Assembly: GCF_004217315.1 (NCBI RefSeq)
Contig: NZ_SGWR01000002.1
Location: 52,321 to 116,320, forward strand
Reading direction: 5' to 3'
Length of the DNA stretch: 64,000 bases
From: Corticibacter populi
GTDB lineage: Bacteria; Pseudomonadota; Gammaproteobacteria; Burkholderiales; Burkholderiaceae_C
The notes under the pieces are model-generated. The model had not been told where the DNA came from. It worked only from the letters and a program-made list of their open reading frames with translations, and ran no database searches. The position numbers and the translations under genes are program-made. Below are positions 10,868 to 62,958 of the stretch, one piece after another; position 1 is the stretch's first letter; the number at the start of each line of letters is the position of its first letter.

Positions 10868-10900
10868 AACGGCAGGAAAATCTTCCTGCCGTTTTTTTTT
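10868..10900 (+). terminator. Rho-independent terminator
   Basis: AACGGCAGGAA, loop AATC, TTCCTGCCGTT, then a continuous T run. It ends the transcript of the small membrane protein. Confidence 0.95.
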
Positions 10901-30026: not shown

Positions 30027-30063
30027 AAAAAAAAGCAGCCGACTGTCAGGACAGGGCTGCTTC
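30027..30063 (-). terminator. Terminator of tRNA-Ser / lysC transcript
   Basis: On the minus strand AGCAGCC pairs with GGCTGCT around an inner CTGTC/GACAG stem, followed by a run of T. It lies 60 bp beyond the 3' end of the tRNA. Confidence 0.88.
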
Positions 30064-54001: not shown

Positions 54002-54385
54002 CACCGCATTTTACCGGGAGTGCCAGCAGGCGCCACGTGGACCAGAATCACCATGCAGCCCCCTGCGGCCTTCTGCAAAGCCAGCAGCCTCCCCACCCTC
54101 ACAGTTGCTCTTCTGCCACACCCCATGCACCATAAGAGGTCATACAATCGCCTCGCATAACACGCTGAAACAGCAGATCCTGGAAGGCTTTCCGAACGCC
54201 TGTTGCAATTTCAGGGGTTCGGGAGCCTGCGGCGTGTGCTGAAATATAAAAAAAGAAACCAACACGATGTCCATCCAGAATCTGGTTCGGGCGCCAATCG
54301 GTCGCCTTGTCATCCAATCCACACTTGCAGCACGACTTGCAGCGCATTCAGGCGCGTCAAATTTGTCCACCCTGTCCTTGGCGTC
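54002..54385. other. Divergent spacer between lpxC and the capsule locus
   Basis: No certain gene. An ATG at 54267, preceded by an A/G-rich stretch, opens a 49-codon frame (MSIQNLVRAPIGRLVIQSTL at its start) that ends at 54416 within the kpsS start region. It could be a leader peptide, but has no further support. ATTTCAG (54208) and CTGAAAT (54239) form a weak inverted repeat. I looked for the capsule JUMPstart/ops GGCGGTAG element and did not find it. Confidence 0.4.
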
Positions 54386-55768
54386 ATGCACCAACCGCCC
54401 TCTTTCATGCCTCTGACGACACACCGACAGGATGGGTGGAGTCCAGTCGATGCCAGCACAGAGACGGTACCGCATGTGGAAACGGAAGCCCAGGCCGCAC
54501 CAGATAAGCCGCCCAGCGCTCCGCCCGAGCAGCCCGACAGCATGCATTCCATGCCGGTACCGTTGCCACTGCGCAGGCTGATGCGTCACAAACGGGTGCT
54601 GCTGCTTCAGGGCCCCATGGGTCCCTTCTTCTCGAAGCTGGCCCAATTCCTCAAGCGGCAGGACGTGGAGGTCGGCAAGGTCAACTTCAATGGCGGCGAT
54701 GCGCTTTTCTACCGCGACCTTGATGCCGTTGCCTATACCGGTCGGCATGAAGACCTGCATGACTGGCTGCACGAACACATTCGGCAAAGAGGCTACGAAG
54801 CAATCGTTCTGTTCGGCCAATGCCGCCCCGTGCACAAGGTCGCTCGCGGCGTAGCGCAGGAACTGGGCCTGGCTGCGCACATCTTCGAAGAGGGCTATAT
54901 TCGCCCCGACTACATCACACTGGAAGAAAGCGGCGTCAATGCCTGGTCACCGCTGCCACGCGATGCCGCGTTCTACCGTTCGCAAGCCGTGCCGGAAGAA
55001 GCCAGCCACAGGCCAAAGCCGCAACCCACCGCGCAACGCTTTCGCAAAACCGCTTCGCTTGCCACGCTGTATGCCATTGGCATGGCCATCGGCCGCATCA
55101 AGTACCGGCACCATGTCTACCATCGTCCCCTCAACCCCTTGGTACAGGGCTGGCAGTGGGGCGTGATCGGCGGGCTGCGCAAGCTGCGCGGCTATGTGCT
55201 TGACCGTCCCATTCTCAAACAGTTGACTGGACCCGAATGTAGCGGTCGCTACTTCGTCCTGCCTCTGCAAGTACACAATGACAGCCAGATGGTCGACAAC
55301 TCGCCCTTTGGCAGTAATGAAGATCTGATTGAGCATGTGCTGCGCTCATTCGCCGCACATGCCAAGGCGGAGGATCTGCTGGTCATCAAGCACCATCCGA
55401 TGGACCGCGCCTACCGCAACTACAGCCACTTCATCCATCAGCAGGCCTGCCGACTGGGCATCGGGAAGCGCATCATCGTCGCCCAGGACCTGCACCTGCC
55501 CACCCTGCTCGATCATGCGAAAGGTCTTGTTACCGTAAACAGCACCACTGGTCTGCAGGCCTTGCTGCACAATACGCCGGTCGCCGTGCTGGGTGCTTGC
55601 GCCTATGACATCGAGGGCCTGGTCTTCGGACAGGGTCGCCATCTCGATCAGTTCTGGGCCGCCCCCGGCAAGGTCGACCTTGATTTGTTCTGGCGCTATC
55701 GCAACTACCTGATCGAGCACACTCAACTCAACGCCAGTTTTTACGCCAGAGCGCCCGTTCTTGACTGA
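54386..55768 (+). CDS. kpsS: Capsule polysaccharide export/initiation protein KpsS
   Basis: The protein has KRVLLLQGPMGPFFSKLAQFL, VNFNGGDALFYRD and FEEGYIRPDYITLEESGVN, signatures of the KpsS family. These proteins add the first beta-Kdo residues to the phospholipid anchor of group 2 capsules. The start is uncertain: ATG 54386, 54407 and 54542 are in frame, none with a good ribosome site. The conserved region begins near 54590, and 54542 would give a length closest to E. coli KpsS. The kpsC partner is not in the window. It is 53 bp upstream of the kpsM frame. Confidence 0.9.
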   Translation: MHQPPSFMPLTTHRQDGWSPVDASTETVPHVETEAQAAPDKPPSAPPEQPDSMHSMPVPLPLRRLMRHKRVLLLQGPMGPFFSKLAQFLKRQDVEVGKVNFNGGDALFYRDLDAVAYTGRHEDLHDWLHEHIRQRGYEAIVLFGQCRPVHKVARGVAQELGLAAHIFEEGYIRPDYITLEESGVNAWSPLPRDAAFYRSQAVPEEASHRPKPQPTAQRFRKTASLATLYAIGMAIGRIKYRHHVYHRPLNPLVQGWQWGVIGGLRKLRGYVLDRPILKQLTGPECSGRYFVLPLQVHNDSQMVDNSPFGSNEDLIEHVLRSFAAHAKAEDLLVIKHHPMDRAYRNYSHFIHQQACRLGIGKRIIVAQDLHLPTLLDHAKGLVTVNSTTGLQALLHNTPVAVLGACAYDIEGLVFGQGRHLDQFWAAPGKVDLDLFWRYRNYLIEHTQLNASFYARAPVLD

Positions 55769-55821
55769 ATCTCCCCGCGAAGGCAGACCCGACTGCCTCG
55801 CCAGACTGCAACAAGCCCGTT

Positions 55822-56655
55822 TTGACAGCATCTGCCGCCCCATCCGCCAGCAACGCCGGCACCTCTGCCGCCCCCCCCCCTCGCTCCCATTGGCAGGTGG
55901 CCTGGGCGGTCTGGCATGCGCTTTTCATGCGCGAGGCACTCACCCGCGTCTCCGGCAGGCGCATGGCGTGGCTCTGGCTGCTGCTGGAGCCGCTGGTGCA
56001 TGTCGGCTTTCTGATGTTGATCTTCTCGACGCTGCGCAGCAGACAGCTCAGTGGCGTAGACTTTGCGCTGTTCCTGGCGCTCGGGTTCATGGGCTACCAG
56101 ATGTTCGTCTCCATCGGCCGGCGCAGCGCCTCCGCCATCAACTCCAACCGCGGCCTGATGTCCTACCGGCAGGTGCTGCCGGTCGATACCGTATTGGCGC
56201 GCATTGGCCTGGAGTTCACGCTGCAAACGCTGGTTTTGATTCTGCTGCTGGCCATTGCCGCCCTGTTCGGCTTCGATATACTGCCACATGACCCGCTCAC
56301 GGCTGCTGCAGCACTGGCCCTGCTGGCGCTGATGGGCGCGGGCTTCGCCCTCATGTTCTCCGTGTTCTACGTGCTGGTGCCCGAAACGGAAAAACTCATC
56401 GGCTTCATCTTCACCCCGCTGTACTTTGCCTCGGCCATCATGTACTCGCCGGCGCTCCTGCCCCCCGCCTTGCGCGACATCCTGCTCTACAACCCCATCG
56501 TGCATGGCGTGGAACTGGTCAGAGGCGGTTTTTTCGAGGGTTATCACCTGCTGCCCGGCATCAGCATGGGCTACCTCAGCACCTTTGCGCTGGGATTCAC
56601 GGTGTTCGGCTTGCTGCTGCAGCGCCGCTTTGCCGCCCGCCTGCAGGCCCTTTGA
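55822..56655 (+). CDS. kpsM: Capsule export ABC transporter permease KpsM, behind a C10 tract
   Basis: The 277-residue protein has six membrane segments of the ABC-2 type and KpsM motifs ALFMREALTRVSGRRMAWLW, NRGLMSYRQVLPVDTVLAR and YNPIVHGVELVRGGFF. It carries capsule polymer across the inner membrane with KpsT. The frame begins with a weak TTG (55822); there is no ATG or GTG between the kpsS stop and the conserved region, and the first in-frame ATG (55927) would remove conserved residues. A C10 run at codons about 17-20 makes the gene prone to frameshift. Confidence 0.92.
   Translation: MTASAAPSASNAGTSAAPPPRSHWQVAWAVWHALFMREALTRVSGRRMAWLWLLLEPLVHVGFLMLIFSTLRSRQLSGVDFALFLALGFMGYQMFVSIGRRSASAINSNRGLMSYRQVLPVDTVLARIGLEFTLQTLVLILLLAIAALFGFDILPHDPLTAAAALALLALMGAGFALMFSVFYVLVPETEKLIGFIFTPLYFASAIMYSPALLPPALRDILLYNPIVHGVELVRGGFFEGYHLLPGISMGYLSTFALGFTVFGLLLQRRFAARLQAL
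55871..55880 (+). repeat. C10 homopolymer in the 5' end of kpsM
   Basis: Ten consecutive C residues follow G55870. They encode the proline run before the conserved KpsM domain. Homopolymers of this length slip during replication, and a change of one base would put kpsM out of frame from the TTG at 55822. Confidence 0.97.
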
Positions 56656-56675
56656 GCCGCTAGTGCCCAAACGAC

Positions 56676-57341
56676 ATGATCGACGTCATCGACCTGCACA
56701 AGCGCTACCGCACCGACCATGGCCTGGGCCGCTGGGTGCTCAAAGGTATCAACCTGCGCATTCCCGCCAACCAAAGCGTGGGGCTGGTAGGGCGCAATGG
56801 CGCTGGCAAATCCACCCTGCTGCGCCTGATCGGCGGCATCGACGTGCCGGACAAGGGCCGCGTCATCCGGCACAGTCGCACATCCTGGCCGCTGGGCCTG
56901 GCCGGCGGCTTGCAGGGCTCCCTGACCGGCCGGCAGAATGCCAAGTTCGTCTGCCGGCTGCACGGCCATGAGAAGGACATGGCCGAAAAGCTCGAATTCA
57001 TCAACGACTTTGCCGAACTCGGCGAAGCCTATGACGAGCCCATCAAAACCTATTCCAGCGGCATGCAGGCGCGCCTGAAATTCGCCATGAGCATGGCCTT
57101 CGAGTTCGACATCTACCTGGTCGACGAACTCACCGCCGTGGGCGATGCCGCATTCAGCAAAAAAGCCCGTGCCGCCTTCAAGCGCCTGGCCGGCCGCAGC
57201 AGTCTGATCATGGTCTCGCACAGTGAAGGCACGCTCAAGGAGTTCTGCGAGGCCGGCATTTGGCTGCATGACGGCCAAGCCCACTGGTTCGACGACATCA
57301 ACGACACGCTGGCCAACTACAAACAAAGCCTTTCCCTATGA
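56676..57341 (+). CDS. kpsT: Capsule export ATP-binding protein KpsT
   Basis: The 221-residue ATPase has Walker [10 protein letters not shown], the KpsT-type signature [18 protein letters not shown] and Walker [12 protein letters not shown]. It powers capsule export by KpsM and is 20 bp downstream of it. The kpsE start overlaps its stop (ATGA). Its short length and lack of a C-terminal polymer-binding domain fit the group 2 capsule type. Confidence 0.95.
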
Positions 57342-58540
57342 CAGACGCCAACAAGCCTGCCGCCGAAACGAGCGCAGCCCCGCAAGAACCAGCAACCAGC
57401 GCAAGTGCCAGTGCAAGCGCGAAGGCGAGCCCCATCACGGGAGCCGTCTCCGCCGCAAGACGGCACCCATTGCTGGCGTTGGGCGTCCTGGCCGTGCTGC
57501 TGGCAGCCATCTACTGGAGCCTCATTGCCTCCGACCGCTACGTCTCCGAGACCCACCTCATTGTCGACAGCACCGACATCCAGAGCGGCGCCAGCTTCGA
57601 CATCGCCAGCGCGCTCACTGGCAGCGGCTACAGCACCACCGATCTGCGCCTGCTGCGCGACCACCTGCGCTCGGTGGACATGCTGCAAAAGCTCGAAGAG
57701 CTGCTGCAGATCAAGGAGCACTACAGCGCCAGCGAACACGACTTCTTCTCGCGGCTGGCCAAGGATGCCAGCCAGGAACAGTTTCACGCGTACTACCTCA
57801 GGCGCAACAGCATCGAGATCGACGATCAGGTCGGCGTGCTGCGCATCCGCGTGCAGGCCTATGACACCGAGACTGCGCAAGCCATCGCCAAGGCATTGCT
57901 GCAGGAGGGCGAGGCTTTCATGAACCAGATGGGCCACGACATCGCCCGGACCCAGGTGGAGTTCCTGGACCGGCAGGTGGCACAAAGCAACCAGCGCGCA
58001 CAGGAAACCCGCAACGCGCTGCTGCAGTATCAAAACGATACCGGCATGATCTCGCCCCAGGCGCAGGCGGAAAGCCTGGCCGCCATTGGCGCGCGGCTGG
58101 AGAGCGAACTGGTCAGCCTGCGCGCGCAACGCAGCGTGATGCTGGGCTACCTCAGTCCCGAAGCAGCGGACGTCAAGCAGTTGGAGCTGCAGATTGCCGC
58201 ACTGGAAAAGCAGCTCAAGACCGAGCGCGCCAAGCTCACCTCGGGCGCCACCAAGAAGAACGAGGCGCTCAACCGCGCCGTAGAGGAATACCAACGACTG
58301 GAACTCGAAGCCCAGTTCGCCATGCAGGTTTACCAATCGAGCCTGCAAGCGCTCGAACGTGGCCGCATCGAGGCGCTGCGCATCCTCAAGAAGATCACCG
58401 TGCTGCAGCAACCCACGCTGGCCCAGGAGCCGCTGGAGCCGCGCCGGCTCTATAACCTGCTGGTGTTTGCACTGCTGGTGTTTGCCATTGCCATCATCAC
58501 CAACCTGCTGGCAGCCATCGTGCGTGACCACAAGGATTGA
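57338..58540 (+). CDS. kpsE: Capsule export inner-membrane protein KpsE (PCP family)
   Basis: The 400-residue protein has two membrane helices, [20 protein letters not shown] near residue 45 and [21 protein letters not shown] at the end. They flank a large periplasmic region with coiled coils (about residues 190-350). This is the KpsE/Wzc-like polysaccharide co-polymerase architecture. It bridges KpsMT to the outer-membrane exporter. An Ala/Ser-rich N-terminal 40 residues is variable. Confidence 0.93.
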
Positions 58541-58696
58541 TGCCGAATCGATGCGACTTGAAGCAAGCGGGAATGGAAGAAGATCGACACCATCGACCGG
58601 CAAACAACCTCTGCGCAATTCCCACAATACCTGTTTCGCACCCATTGTCGACAGAATAGTGACAATTGTTTGCAACTGTCTCCCGAATCCAAGCAT

Positions 58697-60589
58697 ATGA
58701 ATTTTTTATCCAGAAAACAGAATAAGATTCGGTCGCACCACGCTGCTCAACCGAACGACATGCTTCGACGTCTTGCCAGAACCCTGCTCCCGGCCCTGCT
58801 GGTCGCCATGAGTGGCTGGCCGGCCGTGCAGGCACAAAGCGACATATTCCCCGGAGGCCTGCCCGCGACCGACGGCAACACCAGCTATAGCAGCCAACGC
58901 ACCACCAGCAGCGATACCGGTCCATCGTCTGCCGCCAGCCAAGGCGCCAATAATGGCAGCGGCAGCAGCTTTTCCCCGGTCGTACCGCAAGGCAGCCGCA
59001 CAACCTATACGCAGCCGCAAGGCGGCGGTGCGCCGGCCCCGCAGGTGCAACCCAGCGCCCCTCAGTACTTCGACTACCAGAGCAACCTGGGCAGCGATGT
59101 CTTTGGCGCCCAGCTCTTTACCGGCGCCTTTGCCAATGCCGGTGCAGCGCAGTTCAACCCCGATTACGTAATCTCCAGCGGCGACAGCATCCAAGTGCGG
59201 CTGTGGGGCGCATTCGACTATGACGCGCAGCTCACCGTCGACCCGCAAGGCAACATCTTCCTGCCGCACGTGGGCCCGGTGCGCGTGCTGGGCGAGCGCA
59301 ACCAGAACCTGGAGAGCGTCGTCAACAACGCGGTGCGCCGCGTGTTCCGCGCCAACGTGCAAAGCTATGCCAGCCTGGCTGCCGCACAGCCGGTACGCAT
59401 ATTCGTCAGCGGCTTCGTGCATCGCCCTGGTGCCTACAACGGCACCAGCATGGACAGCCTGCTGCACTACCTGGACCAGGCCGGCGGCGTGGACCCCGAG
59501 CGCGGCACCTTCCTGGCCGTGCAAGTCAAGCGCGGCGAGCAGGTGCGCGCCACCGTCAACCTGTACGACTTCTTGCTCAGCGGCTTCATGCCCACCGTAC
59601 AACTGGCCAATGGTGACGTGATCTTCGTGCCGCCGCGTCAGAACGTGGTGCGTGTCAGCGGCCTGGTGGAAAACGCCAAACGCTTCGAAGTCAGCAGCGC
59701 CAGCCCCACCGTGGCCCAGCTCATCGCCGTGGCCAAACCCTTCGCAGAGGCCACCCACGTACGCGTGCAGCGCAATACCGGCGACCTGCGCAACACCGAG
59801 TACTACCCACTCTCGCAGGCCAGCCAGGTGTTCCTGCAAAACGGCGACGAACTGGAGTTCACCGCCGACAAGAAGCCCGGCACCATCACCGTGCGCGTGG
59901 AAGGCGAGCACATGAGCCCGCAAGAATACGTGCTGCCCTACGGCAGCAAGCTGGGCGAGTTGATTGGCCACATCCACTTCAACGACCGCTCGGAACTGGA
60001 GAGCATCCAGCTTTTCCGCCGCAGCGTGCAGGACCGCCAGAAGCAAATTCTGGAGACCTCGCTGCGCAGCCTGGAGACCTCGGTGCTGACGGCGCGCAGC
60101 GGCTCGACGGACGAAGCCCGCCTGCGCCAGGAAGAGGCCAACCTCACGCTGCAATGGATCGACCGCGCCCGCAAGGTCCAACCGCTGGGACAGGTCGTCA
60201 TCGCTCCGATTCAGGAGCGCGCCACCCTGCTGCTGGAAAACGGCGACGTGCTGCGCATCCCGACGCGCGACGGCCTGGTGCTGGTGGGCGGCGAAGTGCT
60301 GTTCCCCAATGCCGTGGCCTATGACTCGCGCATCGACCTTGCCGACTACATCAACCGCGCTGGCGGCTATACCCAGCAGGCCGACGACGCCCGCGTGGTG
60401 GTGGCCCGCCGCGACGGCACCTTCGAGCAAGTGAATATGGACAGATGGGGCACGAAACCTGTCATCAAGGCAGGCGACCAGATTCTGGTGCTGCCCAAGG
60501 TGGACGAGAAAAACCGCCAGTTCTGGAAAGACATCACGCAGATCATGTACCAGATTGCGGTCAGCGCAAAGGTGGTATTCGGGCTGTAA
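58697..60589 (+). CDS. kpsD: Outer-membrane polysaccharide export protein KpsD
   Basis: The protein has a signal peptide best seen from MLRRLARTLLPALLVAMSG (ATG at 58760, 609 residues); the ATG at 58697 adds 21 residues and is the alternative start. A Ser/Thr/Gly/Gln-rich linker precedes the export domain (YVISSGDSIQVRLWGAF, VDPQGNIFLPHVGPV) and several SLBB-type repeats (RIFVSGFVHRPGAYNG, VRVSGLVENAKRF). It forms the outer-membrane exit for capsule. The 156-bp gap after kpsE contains ATTGTC/GACAAT (58644, 58661), a possible operator. A C-terminal hydrophobic stretch ends at VFGL. Confidence 0.92.
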   Translation: MNFLSRKQNKIRSHHAAQPNDMLRRLARTLLPALLVAMSGWPAVQAQSDIFPGGLPATDGNTSYSSQRTTSSDTGPSSAASQGANNGSGSSFSPVVPQGSRTTYTQPQGGGAPAPQVQPSAPQYFDYQSNLGSDVFGAQLFTGAFANAGAAQFNPDYVISSGDSIQVRLWGAFDYDAQLTVDPQGNIFLPHVGPVRVLGERNQNLESVVNNAVRRVFRANVQSYASLAAAQPVRIFVSGFVHRPGAYNGTSMDSLLHYLDQAGGVDPERGTFLAVQVKRGEQVRATVNLYDFLLSGFMPTVQLANGDVIFVPPRQNVVRVSGLVENAKRFEVSSASPTVAQLIAVAKPFAEATHVRVQRNTGDLRNTEYYPLSQASQVFLQNGDELEFTADKKPGTITVRVEGEHMSPQEYVLPYGSKLGELIGHIHFNDRSELESIQLFRRSVQDRQKQILETSLRSLETSVLTARSGSTDEARLRQEEANLTLQWIDRARKVQPLGQVVIAPIQERATLLLENGDVLRIPTRDGLVLVGGEVLFPNAVAYDSRIDLADYINRAGGYTQQADDARVVVARRDGTFEQVNMDRWGTKPVIKAGDQILVLPKVDEKNRQFWKDITQIMYQIAVSAKVVFGL

Positions 60590-60684: not shown

Positions 60685-62958
60685 GTGAACAAAATCATCA
60701 TCGTCGGCCACCCGCAATCCGGTTATGAAGAGGTCGAACGGCTGCTCGTCGAATGCGGCATGGCTCCTGCACTGCCTTCGCGCCGCGAAAAGCTCACGCC
60801 CGACCAAATCAGCCGAACCCTGGTCAAGGCGCATGGCGCCACTCCAATCGAGAATCTGCAGTCACCCCAGCAGCTGCAACAAATCACAGTAGCCCCCGTC
60901 TGGCAGGGCATGGCCCTCGATTTGATGCTGGCGAATGTAGAGCAGCCACTCTGGGGCTGGGCAGACACCCAGGCCGCCTACCTGCTGGACTACTGGAAAT
61001 CGCAAGATCCCCAGATCGTCTTCGTACTGGTCTACGACGAGCCCCGGACCGTATACACGCGCCTGAGCCTCGAGCAGGCCAGTGCGCCGGAGGCCGAGCT
61101 CCAACGCCGGATCGACGCCTGGGTCAGCTACAACGCTGCGCTGCTGCATTTTCACCTGCGCAACCCCGAGCGCAGCCTGCTGGTGCATGCGCGACAAGTG
61201 CAAACATCGGCGCAAAGCTACCTGCAGCAAATCAGCGCACGCATCGATGCTCCCCTGCACGTTCCGCCAACGCTGTTGCCGGAACTTCACAATTCCTCTC
61301 AAGAGGATGAATCGCAAGACGGCGATGCAGTCGTGCAGGACAACCATCTCGCCGTCCGCGACAACCGGGCGCACGTTGCAGGCGCGCCTGCCGAGCCCCC
61401 CAGGTTAGCCGAACTGCAAGCCAACGCCTTAGCCGACCTGCTTGCCAGCCAACTGGTCGATGCCAACCCCGAGGCCCTGCAACTTTATGACGAGTTGCAA
61501 GCAGCAGCCACGCTGCCCCACGGCGTCGCACAGTCATCCGGCCTGCCTCCCGCCTTGTCCGGAAGCGGCAGCCTCAGAGACCGCTACCAGGCCTGGCTGG
61601 CTTTGGTTGCCCAACAAGCAGCGCTGCAGGAGCAGATGCAGCGTGCCCAAACCCAGGCCGAGCAGCTCAAGGCACTGAGCCAACAATTCAGCCACGCAGA
61701 CACCCAGGCGCGGGAACGTCAACGCCTGCTTGATGATCTGCACAGAACCCATCGACAAGCTGAAGCACTGGCCCAGGAGCGGCAACACCTGCTTGAACAA
61801 CAAACCATCGCCCTGCAGGAGCAAACTGCTGACCGGGAAAGACTGTGCGCCGAACTCGCCGGACAGTTGCGGACAGAGCGGCAGCAGTTGCAGCATAAAG
61901 AGCAGGAGCGACAGTTGTTGCTCACACAACTGCACCAAGTGCAGGAAGAACTTGAACAGCACTACTTGCAAGCCAGACAGCAAGACACAACGCTGCAAAG
62001 CCTGCGGCAAAACCTGCAACAGGTCGAACAGCAGGCCAAGCAGCAAGCCGCCGAACACTCACGACAAGTCGAACAGCTACGAGCTGCACGGCAAGAGAGC
62101 CAACTGCTGCTTGCGCAATTGCACCAAGTGCAGGAAGAACTGGAGCGGCACTACCTGGAAAACCAGCGGCATGCATTGCAACTCGAAGAGCTGCAAAAAA
62201 ACCAGGAACAACACTTGCGACAGATTGGGCAGCTCAAGAAAGAGCGCGACGAGCACACCAAAACCGCCAACGAACGCAAGACCCGGCTCGAACAGCTGAC
62301 CCAGGCCAAAGCCGCCTACGAAAAACAGACCCAAGAACACAATCGGCAAGCCGAAACGCTGAAGGCGGAGCGGCAAGCCGCGCGCGAACAAGTCAAGCAG
62401 CTCCAAGCCCAGTTGAATGCGGCACAAGCGCGCCTGGCCTCAGCCCCAACAGCCGACTTGCAGCAGGAAAACGCGCTGCTACTCAGCCAACTGCACCAGG
62501 TTCAGGAAGAGCTTGAACGCTTGTACCTGGAAAACCGCAAGCTCCAGACACCTGCCACAAATGCGTCAATCAGCCCCCAACCGCAGCAACCCATCATACG
62601 CACAGGCGCTGCCAATCGCGTCAAACGCGAACTACCCTATCGGCTCGGCTCATTGATGATCGCACGGTCGCACAACCTGGGAGGCTTGCTCGGCATGCCC
62701 TTTGCGCTGCGCGCCGAAACCAAGCGTTACCGGGAAGAACAGCAAGCCACCGCCGGCCAACCACCCTTGCCGCCAATCAGCGAATACCGGGACGCCAGAG
62801 AGGCCGAGAAAGTCAAACAACACCTCTCCTATCGCCTGGGCCGTGCCTTGCTCCAATCCAGTGAAAAACCACTGGGCTGGCTTGGGCTGCCATGGGCACT
62901 GCGCCGCGAGGTCAAAGACTTCCGGCAACAACGAAATTCCAGGCAAGTGGCAGGTTGA
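60685..62958 (+). CDS. Capsule-linked coiled-coil protein with degenerate sulfotransferase-like head
   Basis: The 757-residue protein starts with GTG/ATG-like MNKIIIVGHPQSGYEEVERLL (GTG at 60685 after a GAGAGAGAGCAAC stretch). The first 190 residues resemble a sulfotransferase fold: a P-loop-like VGHPQSGYEEV, then WGWADTQAAYLLDYW and VFVLVYDEPRTVY where active enzymes have WxWKDPR and VYRxP. The PAPS-binding Lys/Arg are therefore missing. Residues about 305-620 are glutamine-rich coiled coil with LLLxQLHQVQEELE at about 411, 474 and 598. The C-terminus holds two related modules (LPYRLGSLM... at about 648 and LSYRLGRAL... at about 713), each ending LPWALRREV-like. No function is known to me. 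Confidence 0.7.
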   Translation: MNKIIIVGHPQSGYEEVERLLVECGMAPALPSRREKLTPDQISRTLVKAHGATPIENLQSPQQLQQITVAPVWQGMALDLMLANVEQPLWGWADTQAAYLLDYWKSQDPQIVFVLVYDEPRTVYTRLSLEQASAPEAELQRRIDAWVSYNAALLHFHLRNPERSLLVHARQVQTSAQSYLQQISARIDAPLHVPPTLLPELHNSSQEDESQDGDAVVQDNHLAVRDNRAHVAGAPAEPPRLAELQANALADLLASQLVDANPEALQLYDELQAAATLPHGVAQSSGLPPALSGSGSLRDRYQAWLALVAQQAALQEQMQRAQTQAEQLKALSQQFSHADTQARERQRLLDDLHRTHRQAEALAQERQHLLEQQTIALQEQTADRERLCAELAGQLRTERQQLQHKEQERQLLLTQLHQVQEELEQHYLQARQQDTTLQSLRQNLQQVEQQAKQQAAEHSRQVEQLRAARQESQLLLAQLHQVQEELERHYLENQRHALQLEELQKNQEQHLRQIGQLKKERDEHTKTANERKTRLEQLTQAKAAYEKQTQEHNRQAETLKAERQAAREQVKQLQAQLNAAQARLASAPTADLQQENALLLSQLHQVQEELERLYLENRKLQTPATNASISPQPQQPIIRTGAANRVKRELPYRLGSLMIARSHNLGGLLGMPFALRAETKRYREEQQATAGQPPLPPISEYRDAREAEKVKQHLSYRLGRALLQSSEKPLGWLGLPWALRREVKDFRQQRNSRQVAG

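Follow-up and report, generated by a model that had tools for sequence, protein, structure and literature searches.

A run of ten cytosines in the probable N-terminal tail of a Corticibacter populi capsule exporter gene, kpsM, as a predicted slip-prone site

Ten consecutive cytosines (C10) near the start of kpsM, a capsule exporter gene of Corticibacter populi, are predicted here to form a credible slip-prone site. The reading that we favor, and hold with moderate confidence, is that KpsM has a loose tail at its N-terminus whose prolines are encoded by the run, that these proline codons are prone to slippage and may bring about occasional, reversible loss of the capsule, and that the site is accidental rather than a dedicated switch. 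The run would have arisen as a by-product of CCC proline codons read from a TTG start at position 55822. A slip of one base would shift the frame and remove KpsM; capsule export would then stop, by the established pathway, and a slip back would restore it. Loss of mismatch repair as the source of slippage is ruled out, as mutS and mutL are both present in the genome, and a modest slip rate would be expected for the same reason. Capsule loss of this kind is plausible without a dedicated switch because, according to the accessible text on Escherichia coli K96, a run of seven adenines (A7) in kpsC has that effect (PMC13410964). An earlier, sequence-only reading of the same DNA had proposed a capsule phase-variation switch at the tract, and this interpretation is partly supported by the results presented below.

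Results

The kpsM gene and its surroundings

The window, that is, the whole stretch of DNA analyzed, comprises 64 kb (contig NZ_SGWR01000002.1, positions 52,321 to 116,320), and all positions given without a locus or genome label, except those in Lampropedia cohaerens, are counted within it. kpsM (55822-56655, forward strand) encodes the permease of a capsule-export ABC transporter, 277 amino acids long when counted from TTG 55822, with a Pfam ABC2_membrane match of 5.4e-16. Its match to the NCBIfam KpsM model (1e-37) scored 130.5 against a curated cut-off of 300, which we read as the mark of a divergent member. The closest solved relative is KpsM of S. thermodepolymerans, both by sequence (E 6.5e-48) and by the fold of a structure model (TM 0.88), and the identity of the protein is secure on these two grounds. 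Sequence, fold and the adjoining kpsT-, kpsE- and kpsD-like genes place it among the capsule ABC permeases of the group 2/3 type.

On the same strand, kpsM is preceded by a kpsS-like open reading frame of uncertain start (54203-55768; Pfam Capsule_synth, 1.5e-77; NCBIfam KpsS, 4.8e-105, under the cut-off). It is followed by a kpsT-like ATPase gene (56676-57341), named from its place, with a Pfam ABC_tran match of 3.2e-18 and family matches to general ABC ATPases, by a kpsE-like gene of the BexC/CtrB/KpsE family (57338-58540; NCBIfam TIGR01010, 1.2e-80, under the cut-off), and by a gene for a kpsD-like polysaccharide export protein (58670-60589, start uncertain; Pfam Poly_export and SLBB). The gene had earlier been named kpsM; homology bears this out and places it in a kpsS-M-T-E-D cluster. 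Beyond the kpsD-like gene lies an open reading frame of 757 amino acids (60685-62958), coiled-coil-like by eye, whose residues 641-728 weakly match an O-methyl phosphoramidate transferase family (1.1e-8, far under the cut-off).

In published KpsM the N-terminus is formed by an amphipathic interface helix, which touches KpsE (PMC11041684). In our structure model a helix begins at residue 23, the tail before it shows pLDDT blocks of 50 and 69, and the N-terminal tail carrying the prolines encoded by C10 is predicted to be disordered.

Reading frames and stops at the tract

C10 was confirmed at 55871-55880 of the forward strand, where the sequence-only reading had placed it, and the frame arithmetic of that reading proved right. 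It is the sole C or G run of at least eight bases within the window; other single-base runs of this length are T9 at 10892-10900 and A8 at 30027-30034. The kpsM-frame codons across the tract are GCC GCC CCC CCC CCT CGC, and the run extends from the last two bases of codon 17 to the second base of codon 20, counted from TTG 55822, and encodes Ala-Pro-Pro-Pro.

TTG 55822 (55822-55824) is the sole ATG, GTG or TTG upstream of C10 in the kpsM frame, and the most likely start of the gene. Another frame is open through C10 to a stop at 56289 and also has a single such codon 5' of the tract, TTG 55761 (55761-55763), which overlaps the kpsS stop region. The third frame has none. The earlier statement that only TTG codons lie ahead of the tract is thus confirmed for the frames open to C10, but its list of starts left out two in-frame codons 3' of the tract, GTG 55897 (55897-55899) and ATG 55927 (55927-55929, within the interface helix), as well as the fact that the public protein call (P0001, 252 aa) begins at this GTG.

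At C10, TTG 55822 reads into kpsM; at C9 or C12, TTG 55761 does; at C11, neither does. A tract one base shorter would take reading from TTG 55822 to the stop at 56012, and a tract one base longer would take it to that at 56289; such changes of length are predicted to truncate the product, as they do in a contingency locus. Reinitiation at GTG 55897 could partly rescue these off states, and at C9 or C12 the reading of kpsM could pass to TTG 55761.

Translation of the tract

KpsM is very probably translated from TTG 55822, as judged from what is conserved around the tract. Codons 21-25 (Arg-Ser-His-Trp-Gln, 55882-55896) lie between the tract and GTG 55897 and are the conserved start of the interface helix; Arg-Ser-His-Trp-Gln-Val, encoded directly 3' of C10, fits an Arg-x4-[Val/Ile] motif. 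A search for the gene across 399 genomes of the taxonomic family gave matches in 44 of them, at 46 places in all, the best 30 of the 46 were examined as loci, and 28 family loci were left once the window and L. cohaerens had been taken out. With gene calls ignored, 27 of these 28 carry the motif (the exception is L055), and all 27 have an in-frame ATG, GTG or TTG 5' of it. A narrower motif script gave 24 anchored loci plus L055, and the three that it missed are visible in the locus sequences. Beyond the 28, a matching motif string was seen by eye in L003, from the same genus and 30% identical. Fifty of 66 database proteins contain the motif as called, 15 of the remaining 16 begin after or inside it, and the last, P0066, is a distant relative without it. 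The motif arginine stands in 35 of the 36 rows of alignment A2, which took 34 of the 66 database proteins, mostly early-start calls.

The L. cohaerens orthologue (L031) has a tail of 16 residues from ATG 3025, compared to 20 in the C. populi gene, with its own Pro-Pro-Pro and a C7. Since the motif 3' of the tract precedes GTG 55897 and is kept in nearly all the family loci, and since the L. cohaerens tail starts from an ATG, translation very likely begins 5' of C10. With TTG 55822 as the sole upstream in-frame start, the repeat tract most probably lies inside the reading frame, as is expected of a contingency locus and as the sequence-only reading had held. The alignment of the two tails was not above chance (609 of 2000 shuffles equaled it, and 380 of 2000 in the other frame).

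Codon statistics are a mixed judge of the frame around the tract. The kpsM frame is preferred in 55769-55821 (+1.6) and in 55881-55926 (+3.5), the 55761 frame in 55822-55870 (+3.0 vs. -5.8 for the kpsM frame). Shine-Dalgarno energies were +0.1 kcal/mol at TTG 55822, -1.5 at GTG 55897, -2.1 at TTG 55761 and -2.7 at ATG 55927, compared to +0.4 at kpsT, -0.1 at kpsE and a median of -3.0 in 178 training genes. No convincing Shine-Dalgarno sequence was found by this energy scoring at TTG 55822 or GTG 55897, nor at the kpsT and kpsE starts, and because these two genes also have none, the scoring is uninformative for the start of kpsM. The kps cluster may depend on coupled translation, its Shine-Dalgarno sequences being weak or absent (window positions 56656-57340 for the kpsT and kpsE starts).

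The tract in relatives

The comparison set contained one genome per species. An orthologue of kpsM was present in one of ten genomes of the same genus, that of L. cohaerens (G001, 78% identity), with C7 at a different offset compared to the C10 of the window gene. In 24 other relatives, taken from the best 30 of the 46 loci, the maximum length of a C run over the 30 codons ahead of the motif was 1 to 6. No tract of at least eight was found among the kpsM relatives examined (the best 30 of 46 loci, and L. cohaerens), and long tracts are, as far as these sequences indicate, not a conserved property of kpsM there. Of the proposed capsule switch, C10 as the "on" length and the predicted break of frame by a one-base slip are supported; a comparable tract in the relatives examined is not. 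Our literature search found nothing on this tract in this lineage, in agreement with the earlier remark that no description for kpsM was known there; the term capsul- has no occurrences in the accessible text of the L. cohaerens genome paper (PMC5015223).

Long C/G runs in the genome

The genome (4.2 Mb) holds 35 C/G runs of at least eight (52 matches minus 17 overlapping), 11 of at least nine and four of at least ten. As a null for base composition, Markov models of order 2-5 were fitted to 404 kb, 64 kb of which are the window itself; they predict 18-24, 3-5 and 0.5-0.9, respectively, so that runs of at least ten exceed what base composition predicts. A codon-usage null with proteins fixed points the other way, with about 9.7 sense-strand C runs of at least ten expected in genes genome-wide and one supported. 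It overpredicts at a length of at least six as well (28 observed vs. 105 expected), and is therefore rough, indicating a general avoidance of C runs rather than a precise rate. The base-composition and codon-usage nulls thus disagree. With the kpsM tail peptide fixed, genome codon usage gives C10 or longer 6.7% of the time. The second genomic run of ten (L045/L151) falls between genes by the codon-based caller but could lie inside the N-terminal tail of an unassigned minus-strand open reading frame; the remaining two runs of at least ten are also intergenic by that caller. The kpsM run is in this sample by choice, because the genome sample includes the window.

By the codon-based caller, 18 of the 35 runs of at least eight are genic (9 C-sense, 9 G-sense) and 17 intergenic. 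Two of these 17, in kpsM and in an HlyD-like gene, were reassigned manually to genes, with an open reading frame start as the sole ground in the HlyD-like case. With these two included, five of 11 C-sense (proline-side) runs and none of nine G-sense runs lie in the first 20 codons (Fisher p 0.038); without them the counts are three of nine and none of nine, an excess that we take as not significant. Genic C runs of at least eight lean weakly to the N-terminal tails of unrelated genes, their hosts including a T2SSE-type ATPase gene and, by eye, a TetR-like gene. The genome's own C9 runs include one at codons 7-10 of the T2SSE-type ATPase (L048:1501-1509) and one at codons 10-13 of the HlyD-like gene (L043:1501-1509).

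In a sister species (G009), a C19 lies in the N-terminal tail of proA (L100:1993-2011, equal to G009:C2:124462-124480; L108). G004 has a proA whose protein is 97% identical to that of G009 and whose stretch of the same length is interrupted by three other bases. We considered the C19 as a sign of contingency and read it instead as the tail of a housekeeping gene. Long C runs in tails are thus not a mark of capsule genes, because they are present in those of T2SSE-type, TetR-like and proA genes. Poly-C/G runs are generally under-represented and not significantly nearer 5' ends, a bias that holds for poly-A/T, according to the accessible text of Orsi et al. (2010; PMC2831843). As poly-C/G generally shows none there, the lean toward N-termini seen here, should it be genuine, would be a local feature of proline-rich tails.

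Long G runs were also noted in relatives. A G11 (L102:2003-2013, G007:C6) lies in an apparent signal peptide; the protein is at least 688 amino acids long and has a DUF6923 match, and this surface-type protein is perhaps a better contingency candidate than kpsM. A G10 lies in the interior of earP, which encodes the EF-P rhamnosyltransferase, in L. cohaerens (L106:2007-2016, G001:C22). A G22 (L098:2004-2025, G006:C33) and a G21 (L099:1993-2013, G007:C1) stand beside odd sequence and are possible assembly artefacts; the former has an N nearby and is about 1 kb from a contig end.

Discussion

It could be argued that the tract is a selected contingency locus, kept because slippage yields a useful mixture of capsulated and bare cells. 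We regard this as unlikely, although it is a contender to be taken seriously. The tract is longer than the cut-off of at least 7 G/C used for Campylobacter phasomes in the accessible text (PMC6321876), display of the capsule is predicted to depend on the gene, and the shorter A7 in kpsC leads to reversible capsule loss in E. coli K96, with the change present in two natural isolates, as far as the accessible report goes (PMC13410964). C10 is also the sole supported genic sense C run of at least ten where codon usage would predict about ten; long C runs look purged from genes, so that selection could be why this one has survived in a capsule exporter, which counts against an accidental origin. 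On the other hand, the run is C7 in the orthologue and does not exceed C6 over the 30 codons ahead of the motif in 24 other relatives (from the best 30 of 46 loci), similar runs occur in tails of genes without obvious switching use, and mismatch repair genes are in place. A different objection is that KpsM might start at GTG 55897 or ATG 55927, in which case the tract would be an untranslated leader of a length irrelevant to the frame. Both the public call P0001 and the codon-based gene caller start kpsM 3' of the tract, codon statistics in the kpsM frame are poor over the 49 nt that precede C10, and little would be lost by starting at residue 26 because the model helix starts at residue 23. 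However, such a start would cut off the arginine motif of 27 of 28 family loci (best 30 of 46), GTG 55897 is without a convincing Shine-Dalgarno sequence, and the frame of the L. cohaerens orthologue is open upstream and has an ATG, all of which makes a downstream start improbable. An assembly error, with a true tract length other than C10, seems very improbable: very long G runs beside odd sequence do occur in two sister assemblies (L098, L099), but with C10 the upstream TTG 55822 shares the frame of the conserved motif, an outcome not favored by an error, even if C9 would join TTG 55761 instead.

Two further proposals depend on the frame of TTG 55761. In L. cohaerens an ATG at 2994, just after the kpsS stop at 2987, has the same frame relation to kpsM and is open through C7. 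This was tried as support for the alternative start and found to be weak, as open starts in the equivalent frame are common, being present in 11 of 27 other family loci (best 30 of 46) without a long tract; the third frame has one in two of the 27. The upstream peptides of this frame in C. populi and L. cohaerens are unlike by eye, and that of the window, with 33% KRDE, is unlike family tails. Because such open starts are frequent and the two peptides dissimilar, we left our estimate for TTG 55761 unchanged. The sequence-only reading had used it as a working start, and what backs it is an open frame of a sort found in many other loci. The proposal of a switch with three states rests on a frame of a kind often left open by chance and is highly doubtful. 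In it, C10 would give KpsM from TTG 55822, C11 would give no KpsM, and the kpsS-coupled start would, at C9 or C12, yield KpsM with a longer, charged tail; if true, one tract would set both whether and how the capsule is exported. CCC-CCC-CCC-T might also be a +1 ribosomal slip site that joins the kpsS-coupled frame of TTG 55761 to kpsM. Proline CCC-C/T is a +1-prone motif, the 55761 frame is open through the tract one base off kpsM, and L. cohaerens ATG 2994 lies in the same relative frame; in view of the many tract-free loci with open starts and of the unlike peptides, we give this proposal hardly any credence. We continue to favor a probably accidental slip-prone site, made of proline codons within a tail predicted to be disordered, over a dedicated switch.

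Should its length prove variable, the tract would constitute a contingency site for a capsule exporter in an environmental betaproteobacterial genus, for which we found none described in the literature, and slip-controlled display of capsule would extend beyond host-adapted bacteria. If its length is constant, it would serve as a useful caution that, where GC content is high, a long C run can represent a proline tail.

In Neisseria meningitidis, phase variation of the capsule by slipped-strand mispairing in siaD was reportedly described by Hammerschmidt in 1996, and the slippage tract is said to be poly-C. As in siaD, the kpsM tract lies within a capsule gene; unlike siaD, which encodes a polysialyltransferase and whose variation is documented, kpsM encodes an exporter, and its C10 is seen in one genome. 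E. coli K96, with a group 3 capsule, offers a comparison within the kps genes. Among 16 spontaneous mutants, two had a change at the A7 of kpsC, as did a transposon mutant, revertants had restored the tract, and two natural isolates share the change, according to the accessible report (PMC13410964). Both cases have a homopolymer in a kps gene in which a slip of one base breaks the gene, with predicted capsule loss, but A7 is in kpsC and its reversible effect was shown experimentally (PMC13410964), whereas C10 is in kpsM and its effect is predicted from sequence. Campylobacter contingency genes have the same type of tract, with 1944 poly-G/C tracts over the PhasomeIt genome set at a cut-off of 7, which C10 exceeds (accessible text of PMC6321876). 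In contrast to them, eight of the 11 C/G runs of at least nine in the C. populi genome are intergenic by the caller, or six after kpsM and the HlyD-like gene are placed by hand. Finally, the position of the tract near the 5' end of its gene resembles that of the homopolymers which Orsi et al. propose, in the accessible text, as a general inactivation mechanism, although their 5' bias is one of poly-A/T and the kpsM tract is poly-C (PMC2831843).
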